A DNA stretch of 64,000 nt from NCBI GenBank assembly GCA_037043015.1, contig CM073321.1:28571010-28635009 (forward strand), read 5' to 3'. Origin of the DNA: Bryum argenteum. Its lineage: Eukaryota > Streptophyta > Bryopsida > Bryales > Bryaceae. The position numbers were made by a program, and so were the translations under genes. The notes under the pieces are model-generated. The model was not told the origin of the DNA. It saw nothing but the letters and a program-made list of their open reading frames with translations, and ran no database searches. This document shows positions 16,440 to 42,689 of the stretch, one piece after another (position 1 is the stretch's first letter; every line of letters begins with the position of its first letter).

Positions 16440-17215
16440 GTTATTTAGCGTCAAAAGTAACGTTTATCCAGACTAGTCAAAATTAGTATGGGTAACTTGA
16501 CCACAGTGACTTTGTGCATGTTAAACGGTTTAACATGCTTCTGTCACTATGACTATGGTTTAACAACGAGTGTCATAGTAACACTCATAAATTTTGGAAG
16601 AACGGAACCGCGTTAAAAACAACACAACCACGTCAACGTTGACATGTACTCCCCTGGGGGGTCACTTTAGCACTTCCTTCATTACCCTCTAGTAATATTT
16701 ACGTGATTAAATATACCTATGATCCACATCAGCACATTTCTTTTAATATACATGACGTTTAAAGTGACATGGACGACGTTCAGTGTGTTACTTTTGACAT
16801 ATTCATAACTCCTACGTGGAATGCCTAGGTGACGTGGAAAGCTTATGAGGAGGATAGGGGTGACTAGGACAAGTTGGTGTTTGGTCCCACGTGAATGTCA
16901 ATAGTGACGCTGGCGTTTAATTTGACGCACAATTGTGTCAACGTGTGTTTAAGGAAATGTAATGACACAGCTCACGTGACAAGTGCATTTATGGTAGGGT
17001 GATGTGGCTGTTAAAGTTTGACTTGGTCAATAATCCCAGAGTGTCAATGGTGACATAAATGTCAAAAGTAACCTAGGACTTTTTAAACTGTGCATGAGGG
17101 TTAGGCGGCGGCTAAGGTTTGACTTGCGTCAAAAATGACGCGCGTGTCTAAAAAGACATAAACCTCAATTCCGTTAAAATGGCGTTATTCCGCTAAAATG
17201 GCACGATTTTGGGGT
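16440..17215. repeat. Cluster of GTCA/TGAC inverted motifs
   Basis: There is no gene here. Short inverted repeats of GTCA-type cores are unusually dense. Examples are TGTCA-ATGG-TGACA at 17042-17055, GCGTCA-AAAA-TGACGC at 17126-17141, and GTCAACGTTGAC near 16635. A 23-base palindrome with 11-bp arms lies at 16516-16538 (arm GCATGTTAAAC). The right end (17162-17205) carries CGCTAAAATGGCACG and a 22-bp stretch found inverted at 48864-48885. Confidence 0.6.
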
Positions 17216-17413
17216 GAGAAAATGAGAAAAACATGAAGAAATATATGTGATATGGGGACGTTTTGGGGATAATATAGAAAAAGGGAGTCAATTTGGCAGA
17301 ATTGTCAAGCAGAAACCAAAAAACTAATCAAGAATTTGGCCAAAAAGACCAAGATTTACATAGTTCATGAGGAAAGCATCGGAAAGTTTGTGCGGTATGC
17401 ACTAATTGTCAAA

Positions 17414-17920
17414 CACATTATTGAGAATCATCACCAGTGTATTGAACTGCAGTCTGAAAACAATACTCTGAATTGGAATTTTCAAGTCTTGTTTCCTAAT
17501 ATAAGTGGTACTACATCTCCCTCCTCTATCCTATAATAGTACCCTCCATTAGAATTGATGAACCCAACAATTTCAAGTCTTGTTTCCAACACATTCTTGA
17601 GAATCACTTCATGAGCAGTGTTTCCGAACCGCAGTCCTGAAACATGACTACACGGTACAGGAACTTTTAAGATTTATTTCCTAATATAAGTGCTATTACA
17701 CCTCCCTCCTCTATCCTATAATAGCACCCTCCATTAGAGTTCATGAACCCGACAATGTATAAATTAAAGAAGAATATAACAAAGATAAGGTGAATTTCGA
17801 CACATTCTTGAGAATCACTACATCACCCGCGTTTCCGAACTGCAGTCCTGAAACATGATTACACGATACTAGAACTTTCAAGTTTTTTCCTAATATAAGT
17901 AGGCTGAAGTCATCGTGTCT
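17414..17920. repeat. Three diverged tandem units of about 175-210 bp
   Basis: Units start at about 17414, 17590 and 17801 with CACATT(A/C)TTGAGAATCA. They share CTGCAGTC(C)TGAAA, CCTAATATAAGT and CTCCCTCCTCTATCCTAT. Open frames over them are short and unrelated to known families. Confidence 0.7.
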
Positions 17921-18407
17921 ATATCTTTTTTTTAACCAGATGTTGCGCAACAGAAAACACGAGTGTACCGAATCATCTAACATGCTGAGTCCCAAGACGC
18001 ACAACAAGAAGCCCTTCAAAGCTTCCATATTCAAATATTCAGCATATATCAAGTCACTACACATCAGTCACCCAATCATCTTTTGCATCCATGATATCTA
18101 AGGAACCCCAAGCTAATCCATCAAGAGCTAAGAGAAAGGATACAACGATTATTTTAATCAATATCGAGAGAACGTGCGTGGAGTGTAACCTGATTTGACT
18201 AAGTAAAGTAATAAGCATGAACTGATAATCATCACCTTGTGGTCACCACGGGACGGAGCTGACGGGCTACACGAGGTTTGTTTTACTCACTTTGTTATGT
18301 TCCATTGCAGCACATGTAAGTTCTACTGGAGCTTTTGTTCCGAATATGACTTTGTCCTTTCATATGTTCTTTGACAGCACCGAAGCTATCCGTATGGCGC
18401 AAGGTGA

Positions 18408-18704
18408 GATTGCACTACAGAGTATGGAGTCGGTTCCTTGTTTCCTCGTTTGAATGTGGACATCTCGAAGTATCTGTCTTCAAAAGAATCAACAACAAGG
18501 AGAGCAGATGTGAAGTGGAGATGTTCGGATTTTGTGCTGAATATGCTGGAAGAAGGAATTCCCACGGATATCACAATCTATGCACGGGGTGGTTCTACGG
18601 AAGCACACGGGAATGTGTTGAGTTGCGTTTGTCTCGTTTTGTACACTACCAACGAAGCCGACGTCCAAGTGCCGCAGTTAAGTGGTGCCATCGATCAACA
18701 TTAA
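18408..18704 (+). pseudogene. BTB/POZ protein fragment, At1g21780-like
   Basis: The frame contains DVKWRCSDFVLNMLEEGIPT, then DITIYARGGSTEAHGNVLS. This follows the pattern of plant BTB/POZ proteins of the At1g21780 type, where LxxMLEE-I-TDv-I---GG---AH-avL leads into the BTB fold. BTB proteins of this kind are adaptors for CUL3 ubiquitin ligases. The canonical AHRAVLA(S)SPVF motif is degraded, the frame ends after about 40 residues of the BTB part, and nothing downstream continues it. A possible acceptor (TTTGACAG) lies upstream near 18380. I read it as a decayed exon; the family call is moderately sure. Confidence 0.5.
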
Positions 18705-18727
18705 TATGTGAGCTTTATGTGGCAATG

Positions 18728-18795
18728 AGAGTCTTTAAAGTGGAGAGTAGACTTGGGTTTGTAATTCTTCTAGCTCTGGCCAGGAAATTCAACCT
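18728..18795 (+). repeat. Copy of the exon start found at 20245
   Basis: AGAGTCTTTAAAGTGGAGAG and the following 45 bases match 20245-20310 with scattered changes. Both encode R-x-F-x-VESRL-x-x-V-x-L-x-ALA. This is a partial local duplication. Confidence 0.55.
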
Positions 18796-18799
18796 TTGG

Positions 18800-20170
18800 C
18801 GTTGTTGGCATCAGTATACGACTTCCTGACAGTGCCGAGCATTTACATTGCAAAGTTAAGTCAGTAGCAGTGAAACTTGTTACAACTATAAACTTGGAAA
18901 TTACGACAAAGTTATCTGGGTACTTGTCTTTCTTGAGCAGATGAAGACCAACAGCAAGCAACTTATTTGCTTTAGAGCGAGAAGTAAGTACTTTCGGACC
19001 GACAGTTGATCTACAAGGAGGTTTTATGTTTGGAACTTTAGTTCATACCGAACTTGAACGCATTAATCAAATCAAGTCATAGTTTTTCATCTCGAGGCCG
19101 AGGTTGTAAATATCTTGTGTTTTAGAAATTCAACTTAACTAGTGTTGTTTGTGATTATAAGAAACTAAGGGCGTTTGTGGGAGCGGAGATGTGGAGGCAT
19201 CTGCAATTATGATTCTGCAATACAGTTTGTTTGCATGCTTTGAAGAGAGGTTGTTAACCAAAATTTGAAAGACATTTGTTTGTTTCATTGATAAATCTGA
19301 CTGTGATGGCATTCTGGATGGAGATCCGAATGTGGTTTGGTTCCCAAACCTGCTTAGTACTAGCTCTAAATTTTATCACCGCGACCGAGATATTGCAAAG
19401 AGAGCCCGGATTGAAGCAGTAACGAGTGTGATGACTGGAATGTCGATACGCAACTCTAAGATATTCACCTTATTTTTATTTGTTATCGGAGCTAAGGAAA
19501 TATGATGTTATTGAGCTTGTCAACGTATGCTTGGCAGTTCTTTAGATTGACATACAGATTTTTCAGCTTTTGAACGACAGTCGAGAACCATAAAAGTCAG
19601 CGAGGTTGAATCTACGAGGGCGTGCTAGATTAGGGTCGCCATGGACCAAGACAGGGAACTCCTAAACGACAATGGAGAACCATGATGCTCATAAAGTACG
19701 AGTCACGACGGCGTTTTAGTTGAGGGTCGGCACAGGAGCACGCAAAAGAAGATGTGAACGGCCGCTCAAAAAATTTGAATGTCGAGAGTCGGGTATTAGG
19801 CGGAACAGAAGCGAGATACAAGCAGAGAAGAGCAGAAATGAGACCAATAGGCGAAGAATTCCACGCCTCGTGTGCGACCAAATTTATTAAAAATCATCAA
19901 GTCCAACTTGCTAGTAGCTCGAGATTTTAAGAGAATGTGATACAAGCAAGTTAGGGGAGAAATAAAACATCTTCTTCTCCTTCACCACAACTCCATCCCA
20001 ATAACTATAAGACTCAGGTCTGTAAAACTTGTCTGCCTTAAGTTGTTCCATCTCCACTGCCTGTAAATCTGGAAAGTCTTTAATTGTTTACAGATTAGCG
20101 TCCGTAACCATGTGATGTTGAGTTGATCCAAGGCAATGATCATAACACTAAGCTTAAAGAGCAATTTCGA
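18800..20170. other. Intergenic, no supported gene
   Basis: Moderately AT-rich sequence with only short, unrelated open frames on both strands. A coding-like patch (18780-18860, peptide LALLASVYDFLTVPSIYIAK) has no recognisable family and ends in stops. Confidence 0.4.
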
Positions 20171-20175
20171 GTATT

Positions 20176-20267
20176 TACTGGTTTTGAGGATTTTTTAAGT
20201 TAATGAGAGACTTTGAAGTGGTACTGGTTTTGAGGATTTTTTAAGTTAATGAGAGACTTTGAAGTAG
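20176..20267. repeat. 46-bp perfect tandem duplication
   Basis: TACTGGTTTTGAGGATTTTT and the next 26 bases occur at 20176-20221 and again at 20222-20267, differing only at the last bases. The near-identity points to a recent duplication. It forms the upstream edge of the pseudogene that follows. Confidence 0.9.
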
Positions 20268-21130
20268 AGAGTAGACTTAGGATTGTGCTTCTTCCAGCTC
20301 TCGCTCCGTACTTACACCCAACGGATTGCAGACTTCTCTATCGGGATTCCCTAGGTGTCGAGCACTTGGATTACAATATCAGTAATATTGAACAATTATT
20401 CAGTGCTATTGATTCTGTAATCCAAGAGATCAGCACGGAGGAAATCTGCCATAAAGAAGTCAGCAATTCTTTGAGTGTAAGTACAATGCAAGAACAGGAA
20501 GGAGCACAATCCCAAGTCTACTCTGCACTATGAAGTCTCTGATTGCATCAAGACCCCTTACGTTCTAGGGGCAGAGGAGAATTAGAGACTCGAAGGTTGC
20601 AGGTATTAGATGGAGATGTGATGATCTGCTAGTTTAGGGTCATTCCGGACCATGTGTCTACGCTACTCGAACAGATATGGCGAGTGCTAAACATTAGTAC
20701 TCCTACTTGTTTCGTTGCTTACGAAGGCCCGCTGGAGAAGAAGAAGGTCAATGATCTCCATACAATGACTATACAAAAGCAAGTGGAATAGCAGGACAGA
20801 GGAATTTTATTATTGACTATAGTATATAAGGTTGATAATGAATTCCAGAAACTGGCAAATTCCACGCGCCAACATGCTCCTCTAAGTCAACAACTTTCTA
20901 AACGGCCGCTCAGGAAGATGGTCGTCGCCCACAATCCATCTCGCAGAAGTATCCCAACAAGTCGTCGAAACTCCGGGGGTCCTAATAAATTCCTGTGGGA
21001 TAGTTGTGAAGTACGTGGTATGAGGAGGGGAGAGAGACATGAATATGGCAACATGCATAGTCACAAACGAGGAGAAAGGGACGAGGAAGTGCACGAACTA
21101 GTAGAAGGCAAAACTCACCGTCAGCGTTAA
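20249..21130 (+). pseudogene. Unrecognised two-exon pseudogene
   Basis: Exon 1 (20249-20476) encodes a helical segment (HLDYNISNIEQLFSAIDSV) and ends at a strong donor, GTAAGT. Exon 2 starts at 20603 after GGTTGCAG in the same phase (0) and continues with segments such as LLEQIWRVLNISTPT. In-frame stops fall within it near 20630 and at 20788-20790, after which the frame is open again to 21130. The coherent splice sites and phase suggest a real former gene. No family could be assigned. It runs towards the minus-strand phosphatase-like pseudogene. Confidence 0.35.
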
Positions 21131-21283
21131 GCATCCAAGGCGATGAGCATCCAAGGCGTCACATGTCCGTCACTGCACCGTCGCCATCGGAGGAACCGGC
21201 GCCTTCCGCGGTGTCCAGGACGGACGAACCCTGGAACCTAGAATATCGACGATGCCGTCGAGAGGACCGTGCTTCACACTGCA

Positions 21284-22255
21284 TTAGAGACGAGGCATTA
21301 CTGCGGGCACCCTGCGAGGAGTAAAATAGTCGTCTCCTCTCTGTGAGTGCGTGGACGGAATATAATCCAAGTTCTCCAGTTCAAGGGATCGGTCCGTGTA
21401 CTTGGCACAAACTCGGACTTTACTAGCGAACGCCGTGGCACGTAGCGAACACGTATCTTGGCCTTTGTATTTCCATGTGAAGGCCATGTAGCGCGGAATA
21501 CTTTTTCCGGACTTGACGATGTGGAAAATGTACTTCGCCACAGACTGGCGGAGCACCTGATCGTTGGGATTGCCCTTGTAAACGATGGGGAATATTGCAT
21601 TGTATCGAGGATTTAGCAGTGCCGATTTGGAGCTGGAGTCTATGAGGAGGGTGTTGGACGCATTTAGACATATATCGGGCTTACAGAATCTGGGCTAGCC
21701 CCACACCATCTTGTGAAGGACCTTAACGTGCAGCCTATCTCCTGGGTGCCCGACATGCTAGACGTAAGTCCTTTCGGTGGCCATGAGGTTAGGCCGCAGT
21801 GTAGAGGGGTGACCTAGACATGGATATGGGCGCAACCAACACTCTCTAACCGGACATCGACACTCCGACTGCGGCCTGGTTTCAATGATGTGAGTGCAAT
21901 CTTCAACAGAGAGGATATCTCTTGGTTGCGTCAGTCCCTGGAAAAGAAACCTGACCATACCCTTCGTGATAATCCTCGGCATCCTAGTCCAAATACCAAC
22001 GTGGCAAACGCTAGTGAGAAACGCGAGGAATTCCCGCACTCCCGGTCGACACCTAAGGACGTAGTCTTTGAAGATAGTTCGGGTCTGGGGACGGAAGTCC
22101 GCCCCCTCAGAGAAGGATGGCTGAACACAATGCAAGGGCGGGTTCTGAAGAAACCCATTGTCGTGCTCGATATCACAGAGCACGCCGTCAAGCTCCAAGA
22201 TAACAAAATACTTCATGAACTCGGGTTGTATTTTCTCGTACGCAGGATATGTGAC
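21284..22255 (-). pseudogene. HAD/FCP1-like phosphatase pseudogene
   Basis: The order of motifs follows FCP1/SCP (NLI-interacting factor) HAD phosphatases. These are YFVILELDGVLCD (motif I region), RPGVREFLAFL, VGIWTRMP (motif II region), and NTLLIDSSSKSALLNPRYNA (motif IV region). The frame is constant from 22255 to 21284 but carries TAG at 21760-21758 and 21697-21695. The catalytic DxD of motif I reads E-L-D, and the usual DD of motif IV reads D-S, so both active-site acids are altered. A TTGCAG acceptor precedes 22255, so an upstream exon existed. It is related to the better preserved gene at 49-51 kb. Confidence 0.6.
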
Positions 22256-22539
22256 CTGCAAATACTATGGCCTTGTAAAAATAGGCAGCCCAGGATCCAA
22301 CTAGAAAGCAAAAGCAAACATGAAGTATCGAGAACCGACGTGATCGACCATGCAATAGAGGGAGGCACGCATTTTCTGGACGACCGTTTTGAATAAATGT
22401 GGGTAGTGAAATTCGGGGATGGCCGGTGAGCAAAACTGGGGAAAGCGATCACAACCATCTGAAGACGTCGTGAGTCATCACATCATCTTCTGGAACGACT
22501 TGGAAGGAATGACTTGTTATGTACTATAGAGGAAACTAT

Positions 22540-23330
22540 ATGGCCGCCCAGAAATCCCATGCTTGGAGAGAATCTGGACGGCCGCCAAGAAATCTGAGGG
22601 ACATATCAAGAATAGCCCGGGGGGGGGGGAGTTGGTTCACTGGTCAAAGGCGAGGGTCATATATGTGAAACGCAGTCCAAAGCGTGTCATGGGAAGGAAC
22701 CCAGCGCTCCTCGAAACATTGAAGACTGGAAAGAGGACGACACTATACTATCGCCTAGTGCTCCCAAGCATGCGGACAATCTTGGTGGCCGCCCAGAAAC
22801 ACCAAGCTTGGAGAGAATCTGGACGGCCGCCCAGAAAACCGAGGGGGGCGAAAAGGTACGATTCTATGCTAGCGCCTAGTGATCCCAAGCATGGAGACAA
22901 TCTGGGAGGCCGCCCAGAAATCCCAAGCTTGGAGAAGATCTGGACGGCCGCCCAGAAAATTGAAGGAGTCTTAAAGATGAGCAGTGAGACGAGTGGTTGC
23001 ATGGTCGAAGGCGAGCATCATAAATCTAAACCGCGGTCCTAAGATCATCATCAAAGGAACCAAGCGCTCCTCGAAAAACTCTTCGATAGGGAACGATACT
23101 GTACTAGCGCCTAGTGATCCCAAGCATGGGGATAATCTAGATGTTCGCCCAGTAACCCCAAGGTTGGAGATAATCTCGATGGCCGCCCAGAAAACCGATT
23201 GGGCCGAAAAGGGTACGATACTATGCTAGTGCCTTGTGGTCCCAGTCATGGAAATAATCAGAGAGGCCGCCCAGAAATCCCAAGCTTGGAGAAAATGTGG
23301 ACGGCCGCCCAGAAAGTTCCTTGCAATCAT
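22540..23330. repeat. Palindrome array GGCCGCCCAGAAA, left of the ParB-like gene
   Basis: About ten copies of (G)GGCGGCCGCCCAGAAA or close variants lie near 22545, 22577, 22787, 22822, 22906, 22944, 23146, 23178, 23263 and 23301. They come in pairs about 35-38 bp apart. Between the two members of a pair sits a second small palindrome, CCAAGCTTGG or a variant. Pairs recur every 90-240 bp with similar linkers (GCGCCTAGTGATCCCAAGC). The array ends a few bases downstream of the gene's stop codon. Confidence 0.85.
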
Positions 23331-23351
23331 CAAACATGACAAACAGTTGGT

Positions 23352-26300
23352 TCAGAGAATAGACGCATTGCACTGCTCGATAGGAGGCCTAACCTGTGGA
23401 GGCTGAGTCGTAGAGGCGGCTAGCGCTCGAGAGTTGTCAACTGGGGAGACTACCGGTAGAGCATTTGCAAGAGGTTCTAACGAAGCCGACTGTGCTAGTG
23501 GGCAATCCTCAGTTCCTAGCCGCTCCTGAACACGCGCAGCTAAGCCCGTGATCGCCTCATGGCCCTGTAAGATATTGCAGCGTAATGAATTGGATTCTGA
23601 GAATCTACGACAAGGGTCACGTAGGAAAATAATTCTTTTTTCGCATTAATCAAGATGAGCGAGCTCAGGAATTATACATTGATATAAGCGACTCGCTCTG
23701 ATTCTAGGGGAACGGCCCCACTACACTGGTACAGAAATAATCTACACCAAGAACTCATGAACGAATCAACCCGGAGGATTCTAACCCCGGTGGCAGACTA
23801 TGATAGATGGGAACCCACCGAATCAATCTTGTTGTCTACGTCTACCTCCGCGCGATCGATAGCAGCAATCGCCTGAAAATGACATACGAAGAGTTCCAAC
23901 ATGGGAAATCATGGTCAATCGATAATCAAGAAGAATTCCAAACAATGAGGCATTCCCTTGTTGGTGCAGGGTTTAATCACCTGCTGATTCTCAATGTCGT
24001 ACTGCGTAAGGTGCAGATCCTCTGGGTTGGAGTCCGGCTCAAATCTCACCGGGGCGGAGGCGCTGGAATCAGGGACCGTTCCGAGGGAAGGCGCAGGGGC
24101 CAAGGGCGCTAGGGCCGGAGCGGGAGACGGGGGAAGTGTTGATGCAGGAGGCACCGGATTTGTGGCCGGGGATGGGGGATCAGGCACTGCGACGACCTGG
24201 TGTGTGGTAACTTCAGTGAGGAAGGCGGCGTCTGCACTCGGTGCGGCGCTGGCTTGGACTGAAGGGTTCCCCACAGGAGGATGAATCATTGCCGGAGGAA
24301 GGATCATCCCCGGAGGAGGGACCATCCCTGCAGGAAGGATCATTCCCGGATGAGGAATCATCCGCGCATGAGTGATCATTCCCGGATGAGGGATCATCCC
24401 AGCAGTAGTGATCATACCGGCAGGAGATGGCATCGTTGGATATACGCCAGGTGCGTAGCCGTAAGAAGCAGCATAAGGCATTGCTTGTGCTTGTGCAATC
24501 TTCACACTCTCCACCATGGCTTGCATTTGCTTCTTCATATTCTCCATCATGTTCTCCATTCTCTTATTCAAGTCAATCTTCTCATCTTCGTGTTTCTTTA
24601 TCACCCCGTCGAGGGTGCTGTAGACCTCGATGTACTTCGAGGCCTCCTGTGCCCTTAGTTTCTTTAGAGTGGCTGCAATCACATCAGCCTGCGGCTTGAC
24701 GTCGGGCTTGAATGCCGAAGACGAGCTCTCGGGAATCTTAGCCCGACTTATCTCCTCCAGGATGACTTCCCTGTCGTGAGCGTGGAATTCCTGTCGCAGC
24801 TGAATCCTGCTCTCAAGCGAGGGTTCGTCCACGGCATCCAGATCAATGACAGTCTCGGACGCGGTTCCGCGGCTGTCCACACTTTGTGAGGCAAGCTTCT
24901 CGGCCTTCTCCTCCGCCACCTTGACCCGCTCTTTCAACGTATTGATGTACTTACGAACTGCTGGAGGAAGGACTTCTGCAATTGAATCGACGGTACGAGC
25001 AGGATTCCGTTGTTCCACAAGCACCTCCAGATCATCCGTAGTTGCGTCCAGCACTGGGACATTGGATGTTATTTCTTGCTCCACGCGTGGCTCCCGAGGA
25101 GTTGGCTCCTGGGACTCAATTCCGTAGTCGTCCCGAAGAGAAAGCGAGGAGTCAGCCATGACATCCTCCGAGTATTCTCCATGCTCCTCCTCCCTTCGCT
25201 GTGAATCCCCCAACTCAACAACCGTACGAGCGTGCTGGTAATGTGCACGGCTCGCGTTGCCAGTCCATCTGTCGTCAATGCCGCGGATTTCGTACCCCTC
25301 ATCGTCCGTTGTAGTCGGCCTCCGGATCTGGGATCTCAGCCGCCTCGATTGTTGCGATGAGGAGTCGCCCCTGGACACGGTAGCTTCCGAGTCTTCCATC
25401 TGAGGATCACCACCGCCGAACTCGTCATCCGAGTCGTGTTCCGCCGGCACCATCACGTCGATCGACTGGCCCTGCACAGGGTCCGCCTCGTTGTCGTCGC
25501 TGGAGTACTGTTCCTCTCCTTCCATGAACTCCGAGGGAATAAGATTGCCCTTTGTATAACGCTGTAGCGGCAATATCTCCCTGTTGGCAGCTTTAGAGTT
25601 TGGGATATCATCCCAACTAAACTTGAGGAACTCCGGTATCACAGCTTCCGCCCAGTAATTGCATGCTTTGTAGGCCACCGCCGTGTGTTCAGACAGATAC
25701 CGCCTGCTGCCTACCAGAAACGATACACTGGACTTGCAAAGCATCTGTAATAGGGCCACACAAACGAGTCAGAACGTATAGTCATGAGCGCAAACATTTG
25801 ACTGAAAGCGATGGTCGAATGTTTCTGGGCGGCCGTCCAGAAACATAGTGCAATAGAGAATGCAAGGGGATGTGTGCATACTGCTGAATCGAACCCCTAT
25901 GCAGAGCAGCCACGAGCTCAACAGCTGAGAGACAAATGTTTCTCGGGCGGCCGCCTGAAATAAGCGGGGTAGTGAAGGAAATTCACATCAATGGTAAGGA
26001 GGCACTTACCGCGCATGCCGTCAATGCTTTGAGCCCGAAGAAGTACAACAACACCGATCCACTGGGTCTGCAGTATTTGTCCAGGAAGTTCATGTAAACC
26101 TCCGTCCTCAACTCGCACCTCGCAACGAAATGCCTATGATCGTTGCGATAGGTCTCGATGCTATCGGCGGTTTCGTCCAGTGGTTCCAATTCTGAGTCCG
26201 GCACATTCAATCGAGGGGTTTCGGTAGTATTTTCCTCCTCCACCATCTGGTCACACGTCTTAACTCTTCTATCCACGGTCTGGACGTACAGGATCCGGAT

Positions 26301-29300
26301 CTCCTCCTTCGTGTTCTGAGGAGGCTCGCCCTTGCCGGCCTTGTACTGTACCGTTGCGTGATTTGTGTGGTTGGGGAAGTACTTGGATACGATCCGCTTT
26401 ACAGAGTCCTCTGTTAATCGCGAATAGATCAACATCCAAGTAGCGACTTCATCGAAGTGTTCTGAGAGAAGATCGACCAAGCTGCTCACGTACACGTCGT
26501 ATCCTTGGTGCAAGGATACCTCTTCTCCGAGACCCGGCAGCATCTTGAAGTCGAGGATGCCAACCTCGCACATGTTGACAATGGCGGGGCCTTGGTCGTA
26601 CAGAAATACCTTGCCCCCACGCGAGCAGAAGTGATTGTTGGAGAACATCCGTTGATCGCTCTTCCATATCCTGAAGGAATGGTCCGCTGCCCGTAAAGTG
26701 ATCATGTGACGCACCCGGTTGTTCAGCATCATCCTTACCACGCTGTCACCTGCCGGAGGCAGGGGGGTCCTGTTCTTCCCTTGCGTGATCTGATTTTTCA
26801 GCCATTCCTTGCCAACTACGCGCATGGCATGGTCAACGTGGAATGTGCTGACGCTGAGGTACTTCTTCGCTACCCACCAGAATTGTAGGACGAATGCGTC
26901 GGAGGGGATGACTTGTGTCACCTTCGAGTTCTTGTTCTTCATGACCATTCCCATCACCATCTTGATGATCACAACTTTGAACTTCTTCCTCTGGATCCAC
27001 GATTGCATCCGTTGGGCCCGGGTCCAAATCTTTGGAAATTGCTACCTCATTATCCCAAGGTAGACCTTGGGATCATCCGACAGAATGTGGTCTGCCAGCA
27101 GTTCGAGTTGAGAATTATCAAGACCTACGAGAGGTCTCAAGAACGTCGACGAGATCTCGAAGTGAGGGTACTTGATCTTGTTTCCCCTGTCGTCCCGCAG
27201 ATCCTTCAGCGGCTGCTTTGTGTCAGGATCGTGGAGCTCAAGTGTCTGGTACTTCGAGAAGACCTGAACCCACTTAGCATACGCCGCATCTGATGACATC
27301 ACGAGCCGAATCTCTCCAAGGCTATTCAAGACGATGTTCTGCGTCTCCCCCTTCTTGTTCTTGGCATTTCTAGCGGACTCCAAAGTCTCGATGGCTTGCT
27401 CTTTGAAGCGCTGCACAGATTCACATGTCAGAAGGCACTGGATTGTAAACACACGCTACTGCAGTCTAACCCAGAAGCTTTGACTGTGTCAGCTAGGTAC
27501 TTTCGTAATAAGCAATAAACGAAGATATAGTTCTAGGCTTCAGAATACGAGATAGTTCTGGGGGGCCGCCCAGAAACATTTCTCGATAAATCTGAAGCTG
27601 TTGTTCAAGAAGAAATAGTCTGGCGGGCGCCCCGAAATATATATTTCTTGTTAGTGCTTGAGGCTACAGAGAAAGAGGAACTAGTTCTGGACGGCCGCCC
27701 AAAAACATTTTTTGATAGAGCTGAAGCTGCTGTAAAAGAAGAAATAGTTCTGGGCGGCCGCCCAGAAATATTTCTTGTTAGAGCAAGAGGCTACAGATAA
27801 AGAATAACTAGTTCTGGACTGCCGCCCAAAAACATTTCATCTTAGAGCTTGAAGCTATACATGAAGAGGAATTAGTTCTGGGCGGCCGCCCAGAAACATT
27901 TCATGTTAGGGCCAAAGTAAGATGATGATAGCATTCGTACCTCATATGCCAGATGTTGCGCTTCTTCTTCCGATCCCTTGGCGTACTTCATGTTCTTTCT
28001 GCACATCTTGGATCGGAGATGGTTGCACCAGATTTCGCGGAGGTGCATTACAGTCGCAGGTGCGGACGTCAGGTATGGTTGCTCGTCGTTGCCGTCGTTG
28101 CATTTGTACGACAGCTTGTGCAAGTGTGATGTGTTATTCGACCACACTATCTCGCACGTCCACATCTTAAGCCGGTCTTTGATGCTCTTATCACTAACTT
28201 TGATATGTCCGTCAAGTATACGTTTAGCCGCTGCCCAAGTGTGTTGGCCGTTGATGATCCAAAAAGGACCTGCTCTTACGCAGTCCAACCAGCTCTTCGG
28301 CCTCGTCGATGTGTTTAGCATCACAGTCAGAATCTGCTTGTTGAATTGCAGAGTGACCATGTTCTTCAGGACTACAGCAACGCCTGCTTGCTCCAAAGGC
28401 CTGTAGATCCTCCCGGACTTTGGATCACATTTTTCCATGTCCCCAACCTCCAGCTGGAAGTACCGCCCTTGACCGAAGATGTACATGTACTCGGCGTTTT
28501 TCTTGAACATTAAGTTTGCCGTTACATGTCCTTGGAGCTCCTCGTACAGTTGAAGCTCTTCTGCCTTGTCCGCAGCCTTTTTCTTCGTCTTCATCTTCAC
28601 AGACAACTTATCCAGAACCATGTCCGGGTTGAACGGAAGCGTGTTTGGGTACTCGCTCCATCTGCCACCGTTCAGATACGTCCCCATCGAGGTCTTCTTC
28701 ACCGCGGTAATCGAAGCGGTCGCCTCGTCGACGACCGTCACGAGTTCTTCAGGGATTTCAGCTCTAGGTTCCTCGCTAGCTTCCTGCATTGGCTCTTCCG
28801 TTGCCTCGCTGGAGTGCCCTCTCTCCGCTTCAGTCGCCTTCTTCCTCTTAGAATTATTCTTCTTTGACGCCTTTACCTTGTCACGGGCCCTTTTACGGGT
28901 GAGAGCGGCAGCGGTCGACTGTCGCGCTCGTTTGGGACAATGTCGGCCACACCGTCGTTTCTCTGATACACGGTACGCGGTGGGGGCATTGTACCTGCTC
29001 CGGGTAAAGCAGATCGAGCAGGAGGGCGGCTACGATTTCCTGCGGCAGGCGCACTGGCTGGCGTCGTGGGCAGATCCCTTGCAGATCCAATCGACTGCCT
29101 TGCATCGGTTTGGGCATTGCGAGATTCACCTTTGTGGCGAGTCCCCGAACCTTCTTCGACGGGCGTGGACGGAGTGTCCATTGTCGGAGCAGGAGTTCTT
29201 TGCTGGTCCGCTGCCCTACTGGATGTGGATTGTGGTGACGGAGGCACAACCTCCTTGCCCTTGGATGTCGAGGCGGGAGTAGAATCATTGGTCGGATGAG

Positions 29301-29877
29301 GAGACATACAAGAGTTCCGCTGCAAGCGCTTCGCCTGCAGCTCTGTTGCTTTCCTGATTACCCCCTTGGCAGTCTTGAAGTCGCTGTTGATGAAGACACG
29401 TAATTCCTTGTACTTCTGCAACCAATCGCCTGGGTTGATTAGCTCCAGTTTGTTTTGAAGGAATGCTTCACAGGATGTTCTGTAGTTTAAATCCGTCAGT
29501 AGCCCCGAGGATATCTGTAGATAGTACACGTCAAACTCTGCACAGTCTTCGGGATAGAGAATGATGCAACCACTGACTTCTACATCCATGTTAACAACGT
29601 CGAGGAAGACGTGACCTTCGCGGAGATGCATTCCAATCACTGTGATCATTCTGAGTTGTCGCCACTTATGAGATCCCCCAGCGTTTTTAAAGCCAAGGCA
29701 AAGAGTGAAGTAGGGAGATCCATCTCCATCGTGCACTTCGACGGACCAGGTACTGTTCTTGGATACAAGACGCAATGGAACCTTCGTTTCTAGCAGTTCA
29801 TTCCATAGTCCTAGATCTGACTCGTCTTTTTTAAGGTATCCGACTAGTGGTGGCGCGGATTCATTAAAAGACTCCAT
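23352..29877 (-). CDS. Four-exon gene with ParB-like and degenerate DNA-methyltransferase-like segments
   Basis: Exons are 29877-27941, 27410-26010, 25744-23981 and 23564-23352. Donors are GTACGA, GTAAGT and GTGATT, acceptors are CAG, and all three introns are phase 0; the product is about 1770 residues. Order: an unrecognised N-terminal domain (1-190); a Pro/Ser linker; a ParB/sulfiredoxin-like signature FWIINGQHTWAAAKR (about 540); a segment like the C-terminal half of N4/N6 DNA methyltransferases, RPSGSVLLYFFGLKALTACA (about 1090-1115), where D-x-F-x-G-x-G is degraded to Y-F-F-G-L-K. Then come an acidic stretch, a coiled coil (KKHEDEKIDLNKRMENMMEN) and a Met/Pro-rich repeat (PHPGMI). Two defects are seen: a one-base shift near 28880-28900 and an in-frame TAG at 27044-27042. 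Domain names are inference from motif shape. Palindrome arrays flank it and lie in introns 1 and 2. Confidence 0.6.
23636..23850 (-). mobile_element. Possible SINE inside intron 3
   Basis: The minus strand carries a B-box-like GGGTTAGAATCC (near 23785), a unique body, and a 3' end AATGCGAAAAAAG resembling a SINE tail. The A box is weak. It lies wholly within the third intron of the ParB-like gene (23980-23565), in the same orientation as the gene. Confidence 0.35.
25800..25965. repeat. Palindromes and tRNA-like head in intron 2
   Basis: Intron 2 (26009-25745) holds two copies of the palindrome family, GGGCGGCCGTCCAGAAAC near 25830 and TCGGGCGGCCGCCTGAAA near 25945. Between them, on the minus strand, is a tRNA-like head with A-box-like TGAGCTCGTGGCTG and B-box-like GGTTCGATTC spaced about 20 bases apart. 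Confidence 0.6.
27540..27900. repeat. 64-bp tandem palindrome array in intron 1
   Basis: Six copies near 27558, 27621, 27689, 27748, 27812 and 27876 give a period of about 63-68 bp with similar linkers (GCT(G)AAGCTG.. and GAGGCTACAG). Two are perfect 20-bp palindromes, TTCTGGGCGGCCGCCCAGAA, at 27748-27767 and 27876-27895. Each contains a NotI site. The array fills most of intron 1 (27940-27411) and stops at the exon. Confidence 0.9.
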
Positions 29878-29939
29878 CTGCGCACACTTCAAACGTGGGC
29901 ACTTACGTTATAAAGATGAAGCGCAGAGATTAAATAAAT

Positions 29940-31540
29940 CAGGACGGCCGTCCAGATTTATTTTCACTACCTTAAAGATACAGCCTTAGTACTAGTCCTT
30001 ATCTTCCACTGTCTATTTCTGGACGGCCGTTTAGAAAGATCAAGCATGTTTGGAATGTCATAGCCAAGTTTAGTTGGACTTCAGAGGCCGTTGTTTTGTT
30101 CTAGACAAACCGCAACAGCTTCTGTGGATTCTGTAGCAATTAGTTCTGGACGGCCCTGCCCCGCTGTTTTTTCTGGGCGGCAGTTTAGAAATACGATACA
30201 TGTATCGTATTTCTAGTACTCGGGGACAAACTGGTATCGACTTAGATCTCTATCGGATTCTAGACCTATATGTAGTTCTTCTTCCTGATACGTTTGCACT
30301 TCTACTGAGCTGTTCTCAATTTGATCAAATCTGGGCGGCCGTTTAGAAAAAACTCGCAAGTGATGGATGTTTTAGTTAGTGTTCACACTCCCCATTATAT
30401 ATATCCAATTCTTATGTCAAAAGATTCTGGGTGGCCGTTCGTATAAATAGGTGTCGTATTTTTATTTGGAATCTCATTCTCAACAGCGGATTGCACCTAA
30501 TTTTCCTGGGCGGCCGTCCTGAAAGTTCATCCCATTGTGTCATCTTGCATTGCGCTTATTATAGATATAATTTGCCTCTGATAATTGTGGTAACTTCATT
30601 TCCTAACCAACGAGCACAATTCGATTTCTTGGCGCCAGTTCAGAAAATCTACTAGTTTGATTCAGCCTGCATTTGTATCTCATATATTTCTACTACATGT
30701 TTTTTCTGGGCGGCAGTTTAGAAATCCTAGTCCTTACATTTGTTAATCCCTAAATTAATTAATCACATATGTTTAGAAAAATTATTTCTGGGCGGCCGTT
30801 CAGGAAATTGAGTCCCTTTAATCTTTCTGCATTTTTGTTCTCATCAAGCTTGAGAATAATTTTTCTGGGCCGCCATTCAATTTTGTCCCTTTAATTTATC
30901 TGCATTTTTCATCTAAAAAAGCTTGGGAACAGATTGTCTCTGGACGGCCGTCCAAAAAAATTGTAAACTATAAATTGGATTTATTTACGAACTACGACAC
31001 TTCGATTTCTGGGCGGCCATTGAGATATCTTGGCCTCCAGAAATCCGCATTTCATTTCTACTACCGAGGACAGCTTGTTTCCAGGCGTCCGTTCAGTATA
31101 CTAAGCCTTCTCACGCGCATTTCTGTTCTAAAATATCAAAGACAGCTTGAATTTTGGGCGGCCGTTCAGAAAACTTAGCCTTCTCACGCGCATTTCTTTT
31201 TTTAAAATGCCGAGGACTACTTGTTTTCTTGGTTGCCGTTTAGAAAACTTAGCCTCCTGACGCGCATTTCATTTCTTAAATGCCGGGGACAGCTAGTTTT
31301 CTGGGCAGTCGTTCAGAAATCCTAGCCTCCTGAGGCGCATTTCATTTCTAAAATGCCAAGGACGGCTAGTTCTCTGGGCGGCCGTTCAGAAATCCTAGCC
31401 TCCTGAGGCGCATTTCATTTCTAAAATGCCGAGGACGGCTTGTTTTCTGGGCGGCCGTTCAGAACTCTTAGCCTCCTGACGCGCATTTTTTTCTTGAATG
31501 CCGTGATGACTTGTTTTTTGGGCGGCCGTTCGTAAAACTT
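29940..31540. repeat. Long palindrome array upstream of the ParB-like gene
   Basis: About twenty copies of TTTCTGGGCGGCCGTTCAGA or variants occur. From about 30706 to 31530 they are evenly spaced by 68-80 bp (near 30706, 30786, 30861, 30938, 31006, 31078, 31153, 31224, 31297, 31371, 31445 and 31516). In the last part the linkers are also repeated (GCCTCCTGA(C/G)GCGCATTTC). Towards the gene, linkers diverge while the palindrome is retained. The array begins about 60 bases upstream of the start codon, so it probably contains or neighbours the promoter. Confidence 0.9.
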
Positions 31541-31684
31541 AGCCTCGCCCTCTCAAAGCAAGAGTTATCCCTAGCCCATGGATAACATGGCGAACAAAAA
31601 ATACAATTTACGAATCCTATATCTACATACGACGTAGATTTTAGAATTCAACAATTCTAAACCAATTCCAACCAAATCCAACCA

Positions 31685-32510
31685 ATTCGAATAAGTTCTT
31701 CATGGGAAGCAAAAACAAATAGGAATGCAAGCTCACCAGAAAGATTGCTTGTGATGGCTTGATGTGCTTGAAAAGTAAAACCCAATGTGATGCTGAGTAC
31801 AGTGAGTAACCGGACTTGCAACACCTCAAAAGAAAAAACCTAAAACAACAAAAGCAAATTCGACTGAATCAGCTCAAAACCCTGGTACCAATTCGCAGCT
31901 ACTACATTGGTCAACATAAAATTACGCTATCTGCACACGTCTAGCAATTTCAATTCATAAAAATGCTAAAACGCAGCCTGACAATGCCAAAACGCAACCT
32001 CAGAACTAGTAACTCCACTCTATTCAAGCAAAGTCTGTACAAAAATAAAAAACTAGAAAAGGTCTTGTTCTAACTACAGAAACCGCAAAACCTAAAATGC
32101 AAAAGCAAGAGCGAGAGAATCACCGAAGCAGAAGCAAGAGAGTCACCGAAGTGCGCAACGAGTGAAGCGGCGAAGGGAAGGAATGTGAAGTGCACCAAAG
32201 TGTGCAACTCGGACAGGGAAACGCAAAGTTCGCAGTTACAGGAGCTGGTGAGCTGTAGAAAGAAGGAAACACAAACTAAACCCAAAGCCGCACAACAAAA
32301 GGAAACACGAACATAGCAAATACACTTGGAAGCTCACCTGAATGAATGCAAAGTGAAGGTTTGATGTGCTATACGAAAGTAAAACCCAATTCGATGTTGA
32401 GTTCAGTTATATACTAGACTTGCAGCGCCTCTGAACCAGAAATCTTCATCATAAAAAGCAAATAAAATTGAATCAGCTGAAACCCTAGCACCCATTCACA
32501 GCATCAATGC
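31685..32510. repeat. Two diverged direct repeats of about 200 bp
   Basis: 31710-31900 and 32310-32510 share GAAGCTCACC or GCAAGCTCACC, TTGATGTGCT, AAGTAAAACCCAAT, GACTTGCA and AATCAGCT in the same order. No gene is seen in them or between them. Confidence 0.65.
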
Positions 32511-33205
32511 ATACAGCTCTCGCAAAGTCAATTTCTTGAGAAAAAAAATCTAGTCAGGAAAAGTACCGAAACAAATTCGAAGTATGATGGGCGCGTACGG
32601 TGCTGTTCGAGGCTGCTGTCGGTAAGTCCAGTAGACGTTCCTCAAAACTGTAGCGTGAACCGACTGTACTACGACTCTCCACCACACCTCAGAATCCAGC
32701 TTTTCGCACCCAGTTCCGTCACTAGTTTATGAGAAAGCACAGAGAAGAGAGCTCGAACGATAGGGGTAAAACCTATACGAAGCTCTCTCACAACCTGCAA
32801 GCGCTCTCGCAATGTACACACTCAGGAAAAGCGCCGAACGAACGAGGACGAGGAGTAGGAAGGGCAACGAGCACGAGGAGTAGGAAGGGCAACGAGCACG
32901 AGGAGTAGGAAGGGCAACGAGCACGACGAGCAGGAAGGGGAGAGGAAAAGCAAGAAAAGCAAAGAACGAACGCAGGAAAACGACGAGCACGACGAGTGAG
33001 GAGGAGGACGATTAGGAGCGACCAAGGCAAAATGAGGATCTCGGAGGAGCAAGTCATGGAAAAGCAAGTCATGGAGGAGCGACGGCGAAGTTCGACAGAG
33101 AAGCGGAAGCTGCGGAGCTGCGCATGGCGGGATGAAAACTGGAAGCGAGAGGGGAGGAATGACGGCGGAGGGGGGTCATCATGACCCCGTACCATCATTA
33201 CACTC
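32511..33205. repeat. 25-bp tandem repeat and purine-rich tract
   Basis: GAGGAGTAGGAAGGGCAACG plus five bases is repeated three times exactly (32850-32874, 32875-32899, 32900-32924), with a fourth partial copy. It lies within a purine-rich tract running to about 33180. The 25-bp period is not a multiple of three, and reverse-strand frames are Arg/Ser/Leu-rich repeats, so I call no protein. Confidence 0.8.
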
Positions 33206-33285
33206 ATGGCCATGCCCATGATGATGTGTATGGGCATGGTCATGTACATGACCATGTCCATACACATCATCATGGCCATGGCAAG
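33206..33285. repeat. 80-bp near-perfect palindrome
   Basis: Arms of about 40 bp meet at TCATGTACATGA (centre 33245/33246) with about two mismatches. The arms are built from CATGG, CATGCCCATG and ATGATGTGTATGG. It could extrude a cruciform or fold as a hairpin RNA. It marks the boundary between GC-rich sequence to the left and a long AT-rich stretch to the right. Confidence 0.85.
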
Positions 33286-33299
33286 TTTTTTTCTCAAAA

Positions 33300-34730
33300 A
33301 TTATATTAGGATACTTTCTATCATTTTTCATCTAAGTTCGCTTCTATCTAATTTACACGTACACTAATTTCCACGTACACTAATTTGCATGTACACTAAT
33401 TTAGGTATTGTTTGTTTAGATTCTAGTTCTCTACATTACTTTTAGAAAGTTTGTATTCAAGGTTTAGTATTCTAAGTCTAGTTTTCTAAATTAAGTTTTT
33501 AGTTTTCTTCTAATTATTCCACGTACTTAATTTATTAGAAAGAATAGTACTCTAAGAAAGTTATTCTCGCTTTGATAAATTGTCTTGTTGACATATGAAT
33601 ATAAAGTTTGTTATTTAAAACTTGATTCTTAATTTCAAATATATTCTTCAACTAAAATTTCTTGTACATGTATTTTTGAATGCTTTCGTTGTCCAACTTT
33701 GTTACTAATATTAGTACCGCCCTTAAGTTTAACTTTGGTAACAATTGGCTAGTTTATTGAGGCTATAGGTTTTTGAAATAAATCATCTGGTACTTTTGAA
33801 GTAAATGTATAAAAAACCACTTAATTGTGTTCAAATTATTCATTAAATTTGAATTTAAGAAAAGATAATGCGTACCCTTGTCAATGAGCACTATTCCTCT
33901 TCGACGAAAATTTAACAAGCGAGAGATATCTTCAAACTTTGAATACTATGATTGTATAAAAAGGATTTTAAGCAAATAACATGTCCCTTATCATTTAACA
34001 TCTATATTTCCTTGTATTTTTAGGAGCTTGAAATCCAAAACTACGACTTTTAGTCTCTATAGACTCTCGGAGGTACATAACAAATATATGTATTTTTGTA
34101 GACTTCCAACCGTAAGATCTTGAACCACCCAATTTTGAGGTATTTTTTCCGAAATTGACAGTTGAATGTATTTCATTTTTGATTTCATAACGTTCGAAGT
34201 TGGAGCAACACTTCCTTCTTTAAGTACAATATGTATCCATTTATAACAATTTCATTTCATTTACACTAGCTACTTAAATTATAGTCAATTTCTATAGAAA
34301 ATTATTTAAGTAATAAATGTTGACTAAGAGCATATTAGAGCTGTAAATTGAATATAGTAGAATTATTTTAAACATTTTCTTCAATAACATATCATTAATT
34401 GAAATTTGATTTAAATAGAAACTCAGAAATCCTTGGAAAAGCTATGAACTTTGTAATTTTTACTGTTAAATATATATTAAAATTTATATAATATGAACAT
34501 TTACTTTCATTGTAGTAAACAAAAAATGTACATTTATGAAATGCAAGATTATTAAAGAATACTTTATATAAAACAATACCATTATACATATGTATTGACG
34601 ATTTACAGTCCAAATACAAATCCAAATTTATATACAGAAAACAAAATATTCAACATTGTGCATTTCTCTATACACAAAGAAAAGTAAAAAGAAATAAAAT
34701 CTAAAAAGAAGCACCATAAAATACTTCGAG
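33300..34730. other. AT-rich intergenic stretch
   Basis: No gene found. Three tandem copies of (A/C)CGTACACTAATTT-like units lie at about 33358-33405. The rest is unique AT-rich sequence with no open frame above 80 codons that has any family signal. Confidence 0.5.
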
Positions 34731-34734
34731 GCTA

Positions 34735-36171
34735 ACCAATCGCTAGTTAAACGGTCATTGATACCGTCCACGTAGCTTCATTGCAATAGATGATAACCTT
34801 GAAAAAATGTAGACTTCAAACAACGCAATACCCAGGTTGTCCAAATGATCCAAAGAGTCTTGAATAATGAACTATATCATTGCTCTTGCACGAAGAATAT
34901 CTCCTATAGCAGGATTAAAATAGTACCCAAGAGCTGGAAAATAAAACCTCGTTTCATTTCCAGCATCATCTTCGGTACCTACATTCAAAAAATATAACTA
35001 CAATTAAAAACTTAGAAAATTTAAAAACAGAAAAACAAAAATATGTATCGTAAAGTTTTAAGAATACTTACCAGCAGCTCCCAACCATATAAAAAAGCCG
35101 TAGTTCAGATCTTCATCGTCGGTATGAGGGTTACAAGAATAATCCTTCGTAACACTTATTGCTGTGTAAGGAGATTCACCAACTCTACCAACACCAGCTG
35201 GTAAATTCTCTTTTGCCCAAATCATCTACGACTGCTCCAAGACTGTTGGAAATAATGACTTCAAATGGTTGTAGAGCATAGAAGCTAGCTTATCAGCATG
35301 AAGGTAACACAAAGAGTCATCTTGCTTAAATCTGCAAAAAACATTTCTTAAGAATAATATTTATATAAAAATCATTATAAAACATTAAATAAAAAATTAA
35401 CAAGAACAAAATTTGAAAAAAAATATAAAAGTATTATTTGAAATAATATAACTTACCTTCCTATATAGCCGTGGGCATGGCGAAAACCATGGTACATCAT
35501 TCTCGTGCCACCTTTTATTTCTTCTTTCCTTGGATCCTTCCTCACAGCATTACCATTCTTTTCAAGGTACAATGCCAAAGAGGTCATCTCCTGCAGATCA
35601 GTCTCATTGAATTGTCCATTCACAATCTGAAGAAGAAACTCATTTGTACATTTGGATAGGATAGTGGTTGGAGCTGTAAGTTTCTCATAACTCCCCATGG
35701 CTGCATGTAAATCGAAGTTCTTCCAAAACTGCTTGGTATGCTTTGCTCCTTGGTTACCATAAATAACCTTTGGTAATTGAGAACCTCTCAGATCTTTCAA
35801 GGCGATGGAGCTAGGTAAACAAAGTTGAACAAGAGAGAAGTGTTTTTGAACACATGAAGTTCGAGCTGTTCGTAATGTGCCGGCAAATTCTCCCTCTGGC
35901 AGCACTCCTTGGAGCACTTGAAACTCTTTCTCCCTTCCATCCAACTCAGACCTTGTTTCAAGAGAAAAGGATAAAACAACTCCAACTTCTCCATGTTCTT
36001 GTGAATTCTTCCCTTGAAATGATTATCAAGTCCTTGTCGAAGAAAATGTTTTGCTACATGCGAATGTAAGAAATCTTCATTTTCTCCTAATATCAAATCT
36101 TCACCACTCGGTAAAGTAATATTCTCACGACGCCGTTTAGACGGTCTCTTTCCTCTTCTCTTGCTCGCCAT
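34735..36171 (-). pseudogene. 2OG-Fe(II) oxygenase-like pseudogene
   Basis: Three exons can be placed: 36171-35457, 35331-35072 and 34978 to about 34735. Both introns begin GTAAGT and end in AG, and frames join correctly across them. The N-terminus is basic (KRRGKRPSKRRR). Exon 1 has a frameshift near 35940. Exon 2 carries TAISVTKDYSCNPHTDDED and GFFIWLG, and exon 3 RFYFPALGYYFNP and IGDILRARA. An HxD (HTD) after a beta strand, followed by a F-x-F-P..G-D-I-L strand, is the layout of 2-oxoglutarate Fe(II) dioxygenases, including TET/JBP-like enzymes that oxidise 5-methylpyrimidines. The distal His is not evident. TAG stops at 35228-35226 and in exon 3 disable it. The family call is inference; substrate is unknown. 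Confidence 0.45.
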
Positions 36172-36179
36172 TCTAAATA

Positions 36180-36690
36180 AAATAAATAAAAAACCAATTA
36201 AAATTAAGAACGAAATTTTAAATTTTTTTACTATTATCCGAATTAAATAATTAATTTAACAATAAATTTTAATTTTTTCCCCTTAGAAGAGAGATTTTAT
36301 TAATACTTTTTTAGATAAAAATAATATCTATTGTATACATCAATTAAATATTTATTAAATATTTGAACATTAAAAAGAACATTAAAAATCCGAACTGTCA
36401 ACATTTTTTAAAGACAATCCACCAAATGAATTCTCACATAAAATGTTCAAATAATATTTTATAATTTTGTCAAAAAACATCAAGAATCCAACTTATCAAC
36501 CTTTTTGGGAAGATAATCCATCAACCGAGTTCTCAATAACATTTTATATTTTACTAAAAATATAATTAAATAGAACATCAACTATCCGAAAAATCAACCC
36601 TTTTGAGAAGGCCATTCACCAAGTGAGTTCTTATATAAATTAAAAATAATATTTTATAATTTTGTCAAAGAACATCAAGAATCCAACTTA
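36180..36690. repeat. AT-rich tandem units of about 95-100 bp
   Basis: About three and a half diverged units share AACATCAAGAATCCAACTTAT, CAACC(C)TTTT, GAGTTCT and AATATTTTATAATTTTGTCA (near 36378, 36472, 36571 and 36661). Confidence 0.65.
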
Positions 36691-36936
36691 TTGGTAAAAA
36701 CACAATTTGAGCAACAACGTTACGCTTGCCTAGCTAGATTCCAACGAGAGTGTCAGGAGGAAAGTGATGACATACAAGATATTGAGATTGTAACTCAGAA
36801 GCTGCAGCTCATTAGAAATTGGACTCACCAACTCCTTATTCCCCGTTATCGTCCTGCAACACCACATCGTCATCAATCGAAACATATTTCAAGTGCCCGC
36901 CAGCCTCACATTCTCAAACAAAGGAAGAAATCATAG
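36691..36936 (+). CDS. Small open frame, 81 codons, unknown
   Basis: A Gln/Arg-rich, helical peptide (segments QQRYACLARFQRECQEESDD and VTQKLQLIRNWTHQLL) with better coding character than the surrounding AT-rich DNA. The first codon is not ATG, so it is probably an exon or remnant rather than a complete gene. No family is recognised. Confidence 0.25.
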   Translation: MVKTQFEQQRYACLARFQRECQEESDDIQDIEIVTQKLQLIRNWTHQLLIPRYRPATPHRHQSKHISSARQPHILKQRKKS

Positions 36937-36939
36937 TAA

Positions 36940-37238
36940 GATTTCAATTTATTTACAAATATTGCACAAGATTGCACAAACAAAACAACGTAATAACAAA
37001 AAACCTTCAAATGAATCTGCACACGTATTGTCGAATTCTGCAAACCCTAGGCAATAAGACTCAATAAACTCAAATACTCGAAAAACAAGAAGAATTCACC
37101 GTTCATAAGCAGGAAGCTCTAACAAGACTCAAGGTTGACACCAAGAGCAACAGAAGATGTGTTTGTAGAATGAGGCTCACCATTGGGTTTATATAGCTAG
37201 CTGGATAAGAGACTGTCAGTTAAACGTGGGGTGGAGGG
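36940..37238. other. Short intergenic stretch with TATA-like element
   Basis: GGGTTTATATAGC at about 37184-37196 resembles a plant TATA box and lies just upstream of the tandem duplication. No transcript can be assigned to it. Confidence 0.3.
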
Positions 37239-37586
37239 TGAAGCAGGTCGTGAAAGGGCCAAAGGAGGCCAAGTATCGTCTTGTGTAATTGGTCCTTTCA
37301 AGATTTTTTAAGAAGTGAACCAATCACATGGGAGGTTCCATTCACAATATTACTACCCATGTGAAGCGTCCATAATACTCTTGGGACAATCAAATGACCG
37401 TCTCTCAGTTAGGTGAAGCAGGTCGTGAAAGGGCCAAAGGAGGCCAAGCGTCCTCTTGTGTAATTGGTCCTTTCAAGATTTTTTAAGAAGTGAACCAATC
37501 ACATGGGAGGTCCCATTCACAATATTACTGCCCATGTGAAGCGTCCATAATACTCTTGGAACAATCAAACGACCCTCTCAATATAG
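37239..37586. repeat. 174-bp tandem duplication
   Basis: GTGAAGCAGGTCGTGAAAGG and the following sequence occur at 37239 and 37413 with only a few substitutions across 174 bp, including CACATGGGAGGT(T/C)CCATTCAC. It is a recent duplication. Confidence 0.9.
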
Positions 37587-37589
37587 TCT

Positions 37590-39110: not shown

Positions 39111-39111
39111 C

Positions 39112-39145: not shown

Positions 39146-39149
39146 ATCA

Positions 39150-42004: not shown

Positions 42005-42009
42005 GTAAG

Positions 42010-42680: not shown

Positions 42681-42689
42681 AATATCTGG

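Follow-up and report, generated by a model that had tools for sequence, protein, structure and literature searches.

The stretch of the Bryum argenteum genome analysed here, 64,000 nucleotides long (C1:28571010-28635009, hereafter the window), holds a copy of a large DNA transposon carrying a gene for a ParB-like protein, a divergent gene for a putative DUF7869-type transposase, and arrays of a palindrome in its non-coding DNA. Related element families of the same genome display different palindromes in the same places, and the sites at which the ParB-like protein binds are most likely the palindromes of its own family, because protein and site diverge together and the placement of the sites recurs. 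That the element encodes a protein together with sites of its own, one of the alternatives offered in a preliminary description of this DNA, is in our judgement very likely, as the pairing is supported by this co-divergence between families. As a whole, the explanation that we consider best, and probably correct, is a co-evolving DNA-binding protein of a large transposon, probably acting in VANC-like anti-silencing or in self-regulation; the chances that its role is anti-silencing, rather than plain self-regulation or some other, appear evenly balanced.

The palindrome of the window element (family A) was found at 19 places in the window with at most 3 mismatches, against a mean of 0.00 in shuffled sequence. 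A slightly degenerate version of the motif (at most 4 mismatches) occurs at 49 places within the element, where single-base shuffles gave a mean of 0.5 and a maximum of 2, and at none of its 9,383 coding bases. The arrays reported in the preliminary description around the ParB-like gene are thus real and far above chance, as are the palindromes that it placed in introns 1 and 2 (Table 1). Its statement that both arrays begin within about 60 bases of the gene applies to the 5' array, 62 bases before the start codon, but not to the 3' array, which lies about 600 bases past the stop; likewise, its exons free of palindromes hold for family A and are no rule for families B and D, as exon sites occur there. 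The array and the single sites (45788, 45939) near the DUF7869 gene had not been mentioned. In family A the palindrome is carried by tandem units of 38, 64 and 73 bp, and in family D by sites spaced at 36 bp; since these different units each carry it, they point to the palindrome as the part that is kept.

Using 211 residues of the middle exon of the ParB-like gene as a query, we obtained 63 matches in the genome (258.8 Mb, 25 contigs; all copy counts are lower bounds), distributed in close, middle and distant groups. The close group has 11 matches, including the window's own (100%), with the others at 76-97% identity; the middle group has one match at 52% on C10 and family B, mostly at 41-47%; and the distant group is mostly at 22-26%. 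Six of the 11 close family A gene copies, the window's own included, are located on contig C1. Family D is 42% identical to family A over the ParB-like region and 25% over the middle exon, and has a DUF7869 homologue in the same divergent position beside the ParB-like gene, identical at 69% over 135 core residues and at 37% and 25% over other parts. A family D element (C2:11994729-12020251; 25,523 bp) displays an inverted repeat of 47 columns at 89% and the target duplication ATGC (1 of 1 D copy). The palindrome of this family is TACGAACGGCCGTTCGTA with close variants, and the A palindrome is found at one place only, with 3 mismatches. D2 has 26 sites, 14 of them upstream of the ParB-like gene, partly spaced at 36 bp, and others in intron 1, intron 2 and on the 3' side. 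Furthermore, in D', which is 56% identical to D, the D palindrome stands in front of the gene and within introns 1 and 2.

Family F proteins are 22-23% identical to D, and their palindrome, TTCAACTCGANTCGAGTTGAA, is odd in length and unrelated to those of A and D; it was found by counting repeated 11-mers, the scan for even-length palindromes having given no shared one. It occurs at 21 places in each of two loci, upstream, in intron 1, in intron 2 and on the 3' side, with none in 3,754 and none in 3,784 coding bases. Placement had been predicted before D' and F were read, and correctly so; the guess of a GGCC/TGCA centre was wrong for F. When each motif was counted in A, D2, D', F2 and F1 (in this order, at most 3 mismatches), the A motif gave 44, 1, 0, 0 and 0 places, the D motif 0, 25, 10, 0 and 0, the 10 being the own family motif of D', and the F motif 0, 0, 0, 19 and 19; with a single off-diagonal count in this comparison, the elements hardly share sites. 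In all five, sites precede the gene and occupy introns 1 and 2, and A, D and F have them also on the 3' side. The closer relatives of A, namely family B and the C10 copy, have few sites, which come closer to the A palindrome (TCTGAGCGGCCGCTCAGA, TCTGAGCGGCCGCCCAAA); over the middle exon, family B shares 45-51% identity with A, and TCTGAGCGGCCGCTCAGA-type sites occur in its introns. The preliminary description would have dropped the link if homologues lacked the palindrome: distant homologues do lack that of A, yet another palindrome stands in the same places. As a separate observation, both F loci have plant-type telomere repeats, (TTTAGGG)n, some 2 kb beyond the palindrome array.

Exact matches in the genome amounted to 60 places for the A palindrome (41 on the forward strand and 40 on the reverse strand, 21 being on both), 151 for D and 875 for F, and the reversed control patterns gave 0 places each. 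At all 50 places listed of the 151 for the D palindrome, a D gene match was no more than 5.8 kb away. For A, 38 of the 60 places were within 7 kb of a gene match, and 21 lay inside element DNA or no more than 5 kb from it.

The gene product is supported as carrying a domain like that of bacterial ParB by profile comparisons against a ParB_N reference set of seven sequences, namely six phage proteins, all of which match PF02195, and one Spo0J sequence. The profile of the ParB-like region reached an hhalign probability of 87% with alignment A2, and 91% (score 45.4) with alignment A6, in which D' and F were added to the A2 series; conversely, 60 column shuffles of A6 did not exceed 2.5% or a score of 20.0, and the reversed control scored 12.8. 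The ParB-like reading that the preliminary description had drawn from the letters GQHTWAAAK is thus supported against shuffle controls. The alignment starts in the residues ahead of KQILTVM and extends beyond IINGQHTWAAAK, the latter being aligned opposite the IVAGERRFRAAK-type box of the reference proteins, and the box letters NGQH...A are kept in 8 of 8 aligned members. Additionally, two of three ParB-region proteins scanned gave weak matches to two ParB-like partition families of PHROG (E=0.0053 and 0.09).

Other searches with this gene gave little. No meaningful match was found in NCBIfam and Pfam for the scanned parts of the ParB-like gene, and searches of the PDB with both profiles gave matches at chance level only. 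Phages yielded no relative, and plasmids one chance match (E=8, for the D ParB region). No relative was confirmed among viral contigs for either profile, a weak negative because the same search found none for true ParB.

The methyltransferase-like C-terminal core proposed in the preliminary description received no profile support. Five phage ParB-methyltransferases gave 0.1-0.2% with scores of 15.3-15.6, no better than 30 shuffles of alignment A5 (mean 15.5, maximum 29.2), and one phage methylase part taken alone gave 1%. The N4/N6 motifs are likewise absent: DPPY and F.GSG, invariant in those phage enzymes, read GILDFR and FCGLKA in the element protein. Since the comparison sequences are so few and so alike, a very remote relation to methyltransferases may exist.

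Several results weigh against a ParB-like protein paired with sites of its own. The ParB region of the window stays below the Pfam cut-off for PF02195 and matches no Pfam family at E up to 1, and the corresponding regions of a B copy and a D copy gave no match even with E raised to 10; against whole phage ParB-methyltransferases it gave only 11%, aligned at the same place, and the structure predicted for the window's ParB-like region alone had a mean predicted local distance difference test (pLDDT) score of 37, so that the model was not used. Between two close copies, palindromes (419 matches of 438) are not clearly better kept than spacers (2039 of 2189; p=0.054). CpG retention gives a mixed picture, being higher at the A 5' array (1.01), the DUF7869 array (1.02), the D upstream array (1.77) and D intron 1 (1.41), and low at the A 3' array (0.76), A intron 1 (0.69) and the D 3' side (0.77). 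With rough borders, 3 of the 26 D2 sites scored as coding, of which two lie at borders and the third within the last exon; counted in this way, coding and non-coding DNA of D2 do not differ significantly (p=0.079). In family B, too, the last exon contains a site. The 9.9 kb before F2 gave no DUF7869 match and contain retrotransposon-like frames. Regarding linkage, the preliminary description had asked whether the palindrome is scattered with no connection to the gene. This is not the case for A, where 59 of the 60 places are near a gene match or element DNA and one (C11:5554299) is near no known element. The first 50 listed of the 875 F places (C1:0.1-8.6 Mb) are near none of the F gene matches obtained in the search that gave the F identities to D.

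The arrangement resembles that of VANC, the protein of Arabidopsis VANDAL transposons. The VANC21 motif is reported to be mainly non-coding and to form tandem repeats within VANC and VANB introns and ahead of the transposase gene VANA, and VANC proteins and their motifs to evolve together between families (PMC5735166); VANC binding to non-coding regions is reported to lead to loss of silent marks (PMC10398659). The systems share an extra gene beside the transposase gene, a motif in the introns of that extra gene and upstream of the transposase gene, growth by tandem repetition, and joint divergence of motif and protein between families. This layout, with sites concentrated in non-coding DNA, both within introns and preceding the transposase gene, is found in A; in D2, 23 of 26 sites are non-coding, with one site only on the DUF7869 side, and in F 21 of 21 are non-coding in each of two loci, with no DUF7869 gene seen. 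The moss elements appear to differ in their ParB-like part, which has no meaningful Pfam match, and differ in palindromes of 18-21 bp instead of the 9-bp motif and in a putative DUF7869-type transposase with 4-bp target duplications. The layout is thus like that of VANC, with a different-looking protein and longer palindromes, and we therefore consider co-evolving self-recognition likely, with anti-silencing as its most likely purpose. According to the mechanism that we propose, the ParB-like protein would coat the non-coding DNA of its own element at the palindromes, and this coat would keep the element's genes expressed against host silencing, or at least regulate them; the sites would multiply by tandem duplication, and each element family would evolve its own protein/site pair, so that families would not be expected to activate one another.

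Some of the features on which this mechanism relies are open to other readings. We favour an anti-silencing coat because the two promoters, introns and the 3' side of the ParB-like gene all have sites, and because these grow in tandem; their presence at both promoters in A would also suit a plain autoregulator, repressing or activating the two promoters with no anti-silencing, although simple promoter control needs no sites in introns, nor on the 3' side where A, D and F have them, and we regard this option as rather unlikely. The palindromes might instead be internal or subterminal sites of the DUF7869 transposase, the ParB-like protein doing something else, given that in family A the DUF7869 gene is immediately preceded by an array and has a site within it, and that both genes occur together in A and D. 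However, the element ends have few and poor sites, D2 has almost none on the DUF7869 side (1 of 26), and the palindromes of A and D share their centre only whereas the DUF7869 cores remain 69% identical, which leaves this possibility improbable.

Bacterial ParB/parS and phage ParB-like proteins (PF02195) share with the element protein the profile match over the box region and the association with palindromic sites, parS sites being palindromes; they differ in that GQHTWAA stands here in place of GERRxRA, in the lack of a Pfam match, and in the eukaryotic transposon setting. Phage ParB-methyltransferase fusions likewise join a ParB-like domain to a long second part, but that of the element protein has no N4/N6 profile match. 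A clamp that loads at the palindromes and spreads, serving segregation or the protection of an excised circle in a parS-like manner, would accommodate the ParB-like domain, the palindromic sites as in parABS and the retained NGQH...A letters; nevertheless, inspection of the printed open frames by eye showed no ParA-like gene, no search being aimed at ParA, the GERRxRA letters are replaced, and many dispersed arrays would better suit silencing control, so that we deem it very improbable. Even less credible is that the palindromes are passive repeats, in tandem or as hairpins, to which no protein corresponds: slippage expands tandem arrays anyway, and no constraint is clear between close copies, but three different palindromes occupy the same non-coding places of three families and are absent from the examined coding bases of A and F. 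A bolder version of the preferred self-recognition mechanism, which we put forward only tentatively, is that a superfamily of large eukaryotic transposons recruited a ParB-like DNA-binding protein, possibly cytidine triphosphate-dependent and spreading, that loads at family-specific palindromes in the non-coding DNA of its own element and spreads from there to hold off silencing, a parS-like self-marking system in a plant-type nucleus that evolved independently of VANC.

The limits of the window element are set by two independent facts, namely that matches to the longest other copies in the genome start and stop within a few bases of 17161 and 48886, and that a 31-nt inverted repeat stands exactly there. 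The left terminal repeat was seen at 10 of 10 other left ends fetched, slightly altered in some. Two further A copies with both ends fetched are 28.7 kb and about 28.6 kb long, and target duplications of 4 bp, TAGG and TTAG, flank both of them (2 of 2). Duplications of this length also occur in other eukaryotic DNA transposons such as Sola, with which the element shares inverted repeats, the 4-bp duplication and a putative DDE-type gene. The window copy itself has no target duplication (CATA and ATAT at its flanks), and both flanks are other repeats that stop at the element ends; it has therefore probably been rearranged. These two flanking repeats (16411-17160, about 30 copies listed, and 48887-51467, 5 listed) abut the element ends exactly. 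The DNA transposon that the preliminary description had considered as its other alternative is supported by the inverted repeats, target duplications and copies, with a size of about 32 kb here instead of 9 kb; its repeats are not mainly subterminal, since they occupy promoters, introns and the 3' side of the ParB-like gene.

Besides its divergent ParB-like and DUF7869 main genes, the element includes a NIF-phosphatase-like gene (Table 1), which is interrupted by stops in the window and open over 326 residues in the copy at C1:35.14 Mb. The ParB-like gene of the window is not intact either, owing to an in-frame TAG in its middle exon, across which other copies (e.g., C1:35.14 Mb and C11:6.68 Mb) have an open frame of 490 residues. 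Coding intervals and exon borders were set by hand from open frames and homology. Of the four exons of the preliminary description, those around the two palindrome-bearing introns, both with GT..AG border letters, are retained, and the fourth was not confirmed: a frame change near 28.9 kb, present also in the copy at C1:35.14 Mb, represents a third short intron or a frameshift. The DUF7869 gene presumably encodes the transposase, in view of its domain, its presence with inverted repeats in both A and D, and its conservation; a literature search found no publication mentioning DUF7869.

Table 1. Features of the window element; positions are those of the window.
Feature	Position	Strand	Remarks
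Whole DNA transposon copy	17161..48886		31,726 bp, nested repeats inside; ends from longest-copy homology and inverted repeats
Left terminal inverted repeat	17161..17191	+	31 nt, 90% complementary to 48856-48886
Conserved box, apparently non-coding	20579..20731		Common to distant family D at about 76-82% identity
NIF/HAD-phosphatase-like gene	21287..22264	-	PF03031 E=6.3e-05
Palindrome array, 3' side of ParB-like gene	22534..23314		38-bp units in part
ParB-like gene, whole coding span	23918..29876	-	Stop codon at 23915
ParB-like gene, last exon	23918..25745	-	About 20% identical to D over parts
Palindrome in intron 2	25823..25842		Weaker one near 25941
ParB-like gene, middle exon (methyltransferase-like region of the preliminary description)	26010..27413	-	In-frame TAG near 27042
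Palindrome array in intron 1	27556..27895		64-bp units
ParB-like gene, first coding part	27941..29876	-	ParB-like box IINGQHTWAAAK at about 28226-28261; hhalign to ParB_N
Palindrome array upstream of ParB-like gene	29938..31535		73-bp units in outer part
Other repeat nested in element	33763..36691		8 copies elsewhere at 86-96%, plus two within element copies
Palindrome array upstream of DUF7869 gene	42710..44234		Motif scan
DUF7869 gene, putative transposase	44337..48032	+	Two open frames; PF25273 E=7.2e-41
Palindrome between the two DUF7869 open frames	45939..45958		Another site at 45788
Right terminal inverted repeat	48856..48886	-	Present at all 7 other right ends fetched

The conserved box of about 150 bp at 20579-20731 was found at 19 genomic places at 76-82% conservation, most within some kb of genes of the distant family D even though the proteins of that family are only about 25% identical, and in alignments to D2 and D8 its insertions and deletions do not keep a frame; it is perhaps a conserved control element or RNA, and an Rfam scan of the window gave nothing at the gathering threshold. 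To the right of the element, positions 49403-52220 hold a second NIF-phosphatase-like gene (49403-50209) and a C-terminal DUF7869 piece (51753-52220) 34% identical to the element's own DUF7869, which are probably remains of a related element. Open frames at 12585-15379 and 55134-57980 resemble, by eye, two further transposon genes with Cys/His-rich ends, with no Pfam match in the scanned parts.

In the titles and abstract openings of the top literature entries, we found no prior description of this system. If the proposed pairing is true, it would constitute a second, independent transposon self-recognition protein co-evolving with its own DNA motif, based on a different protein, and ParB-like domains would gain a role in the eukaryotic nucleus. 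Because this one genome offers three protein/palindrome pairs with hardly any sites in common, the joint origin of new protein-DNA specificities may be tested directly.

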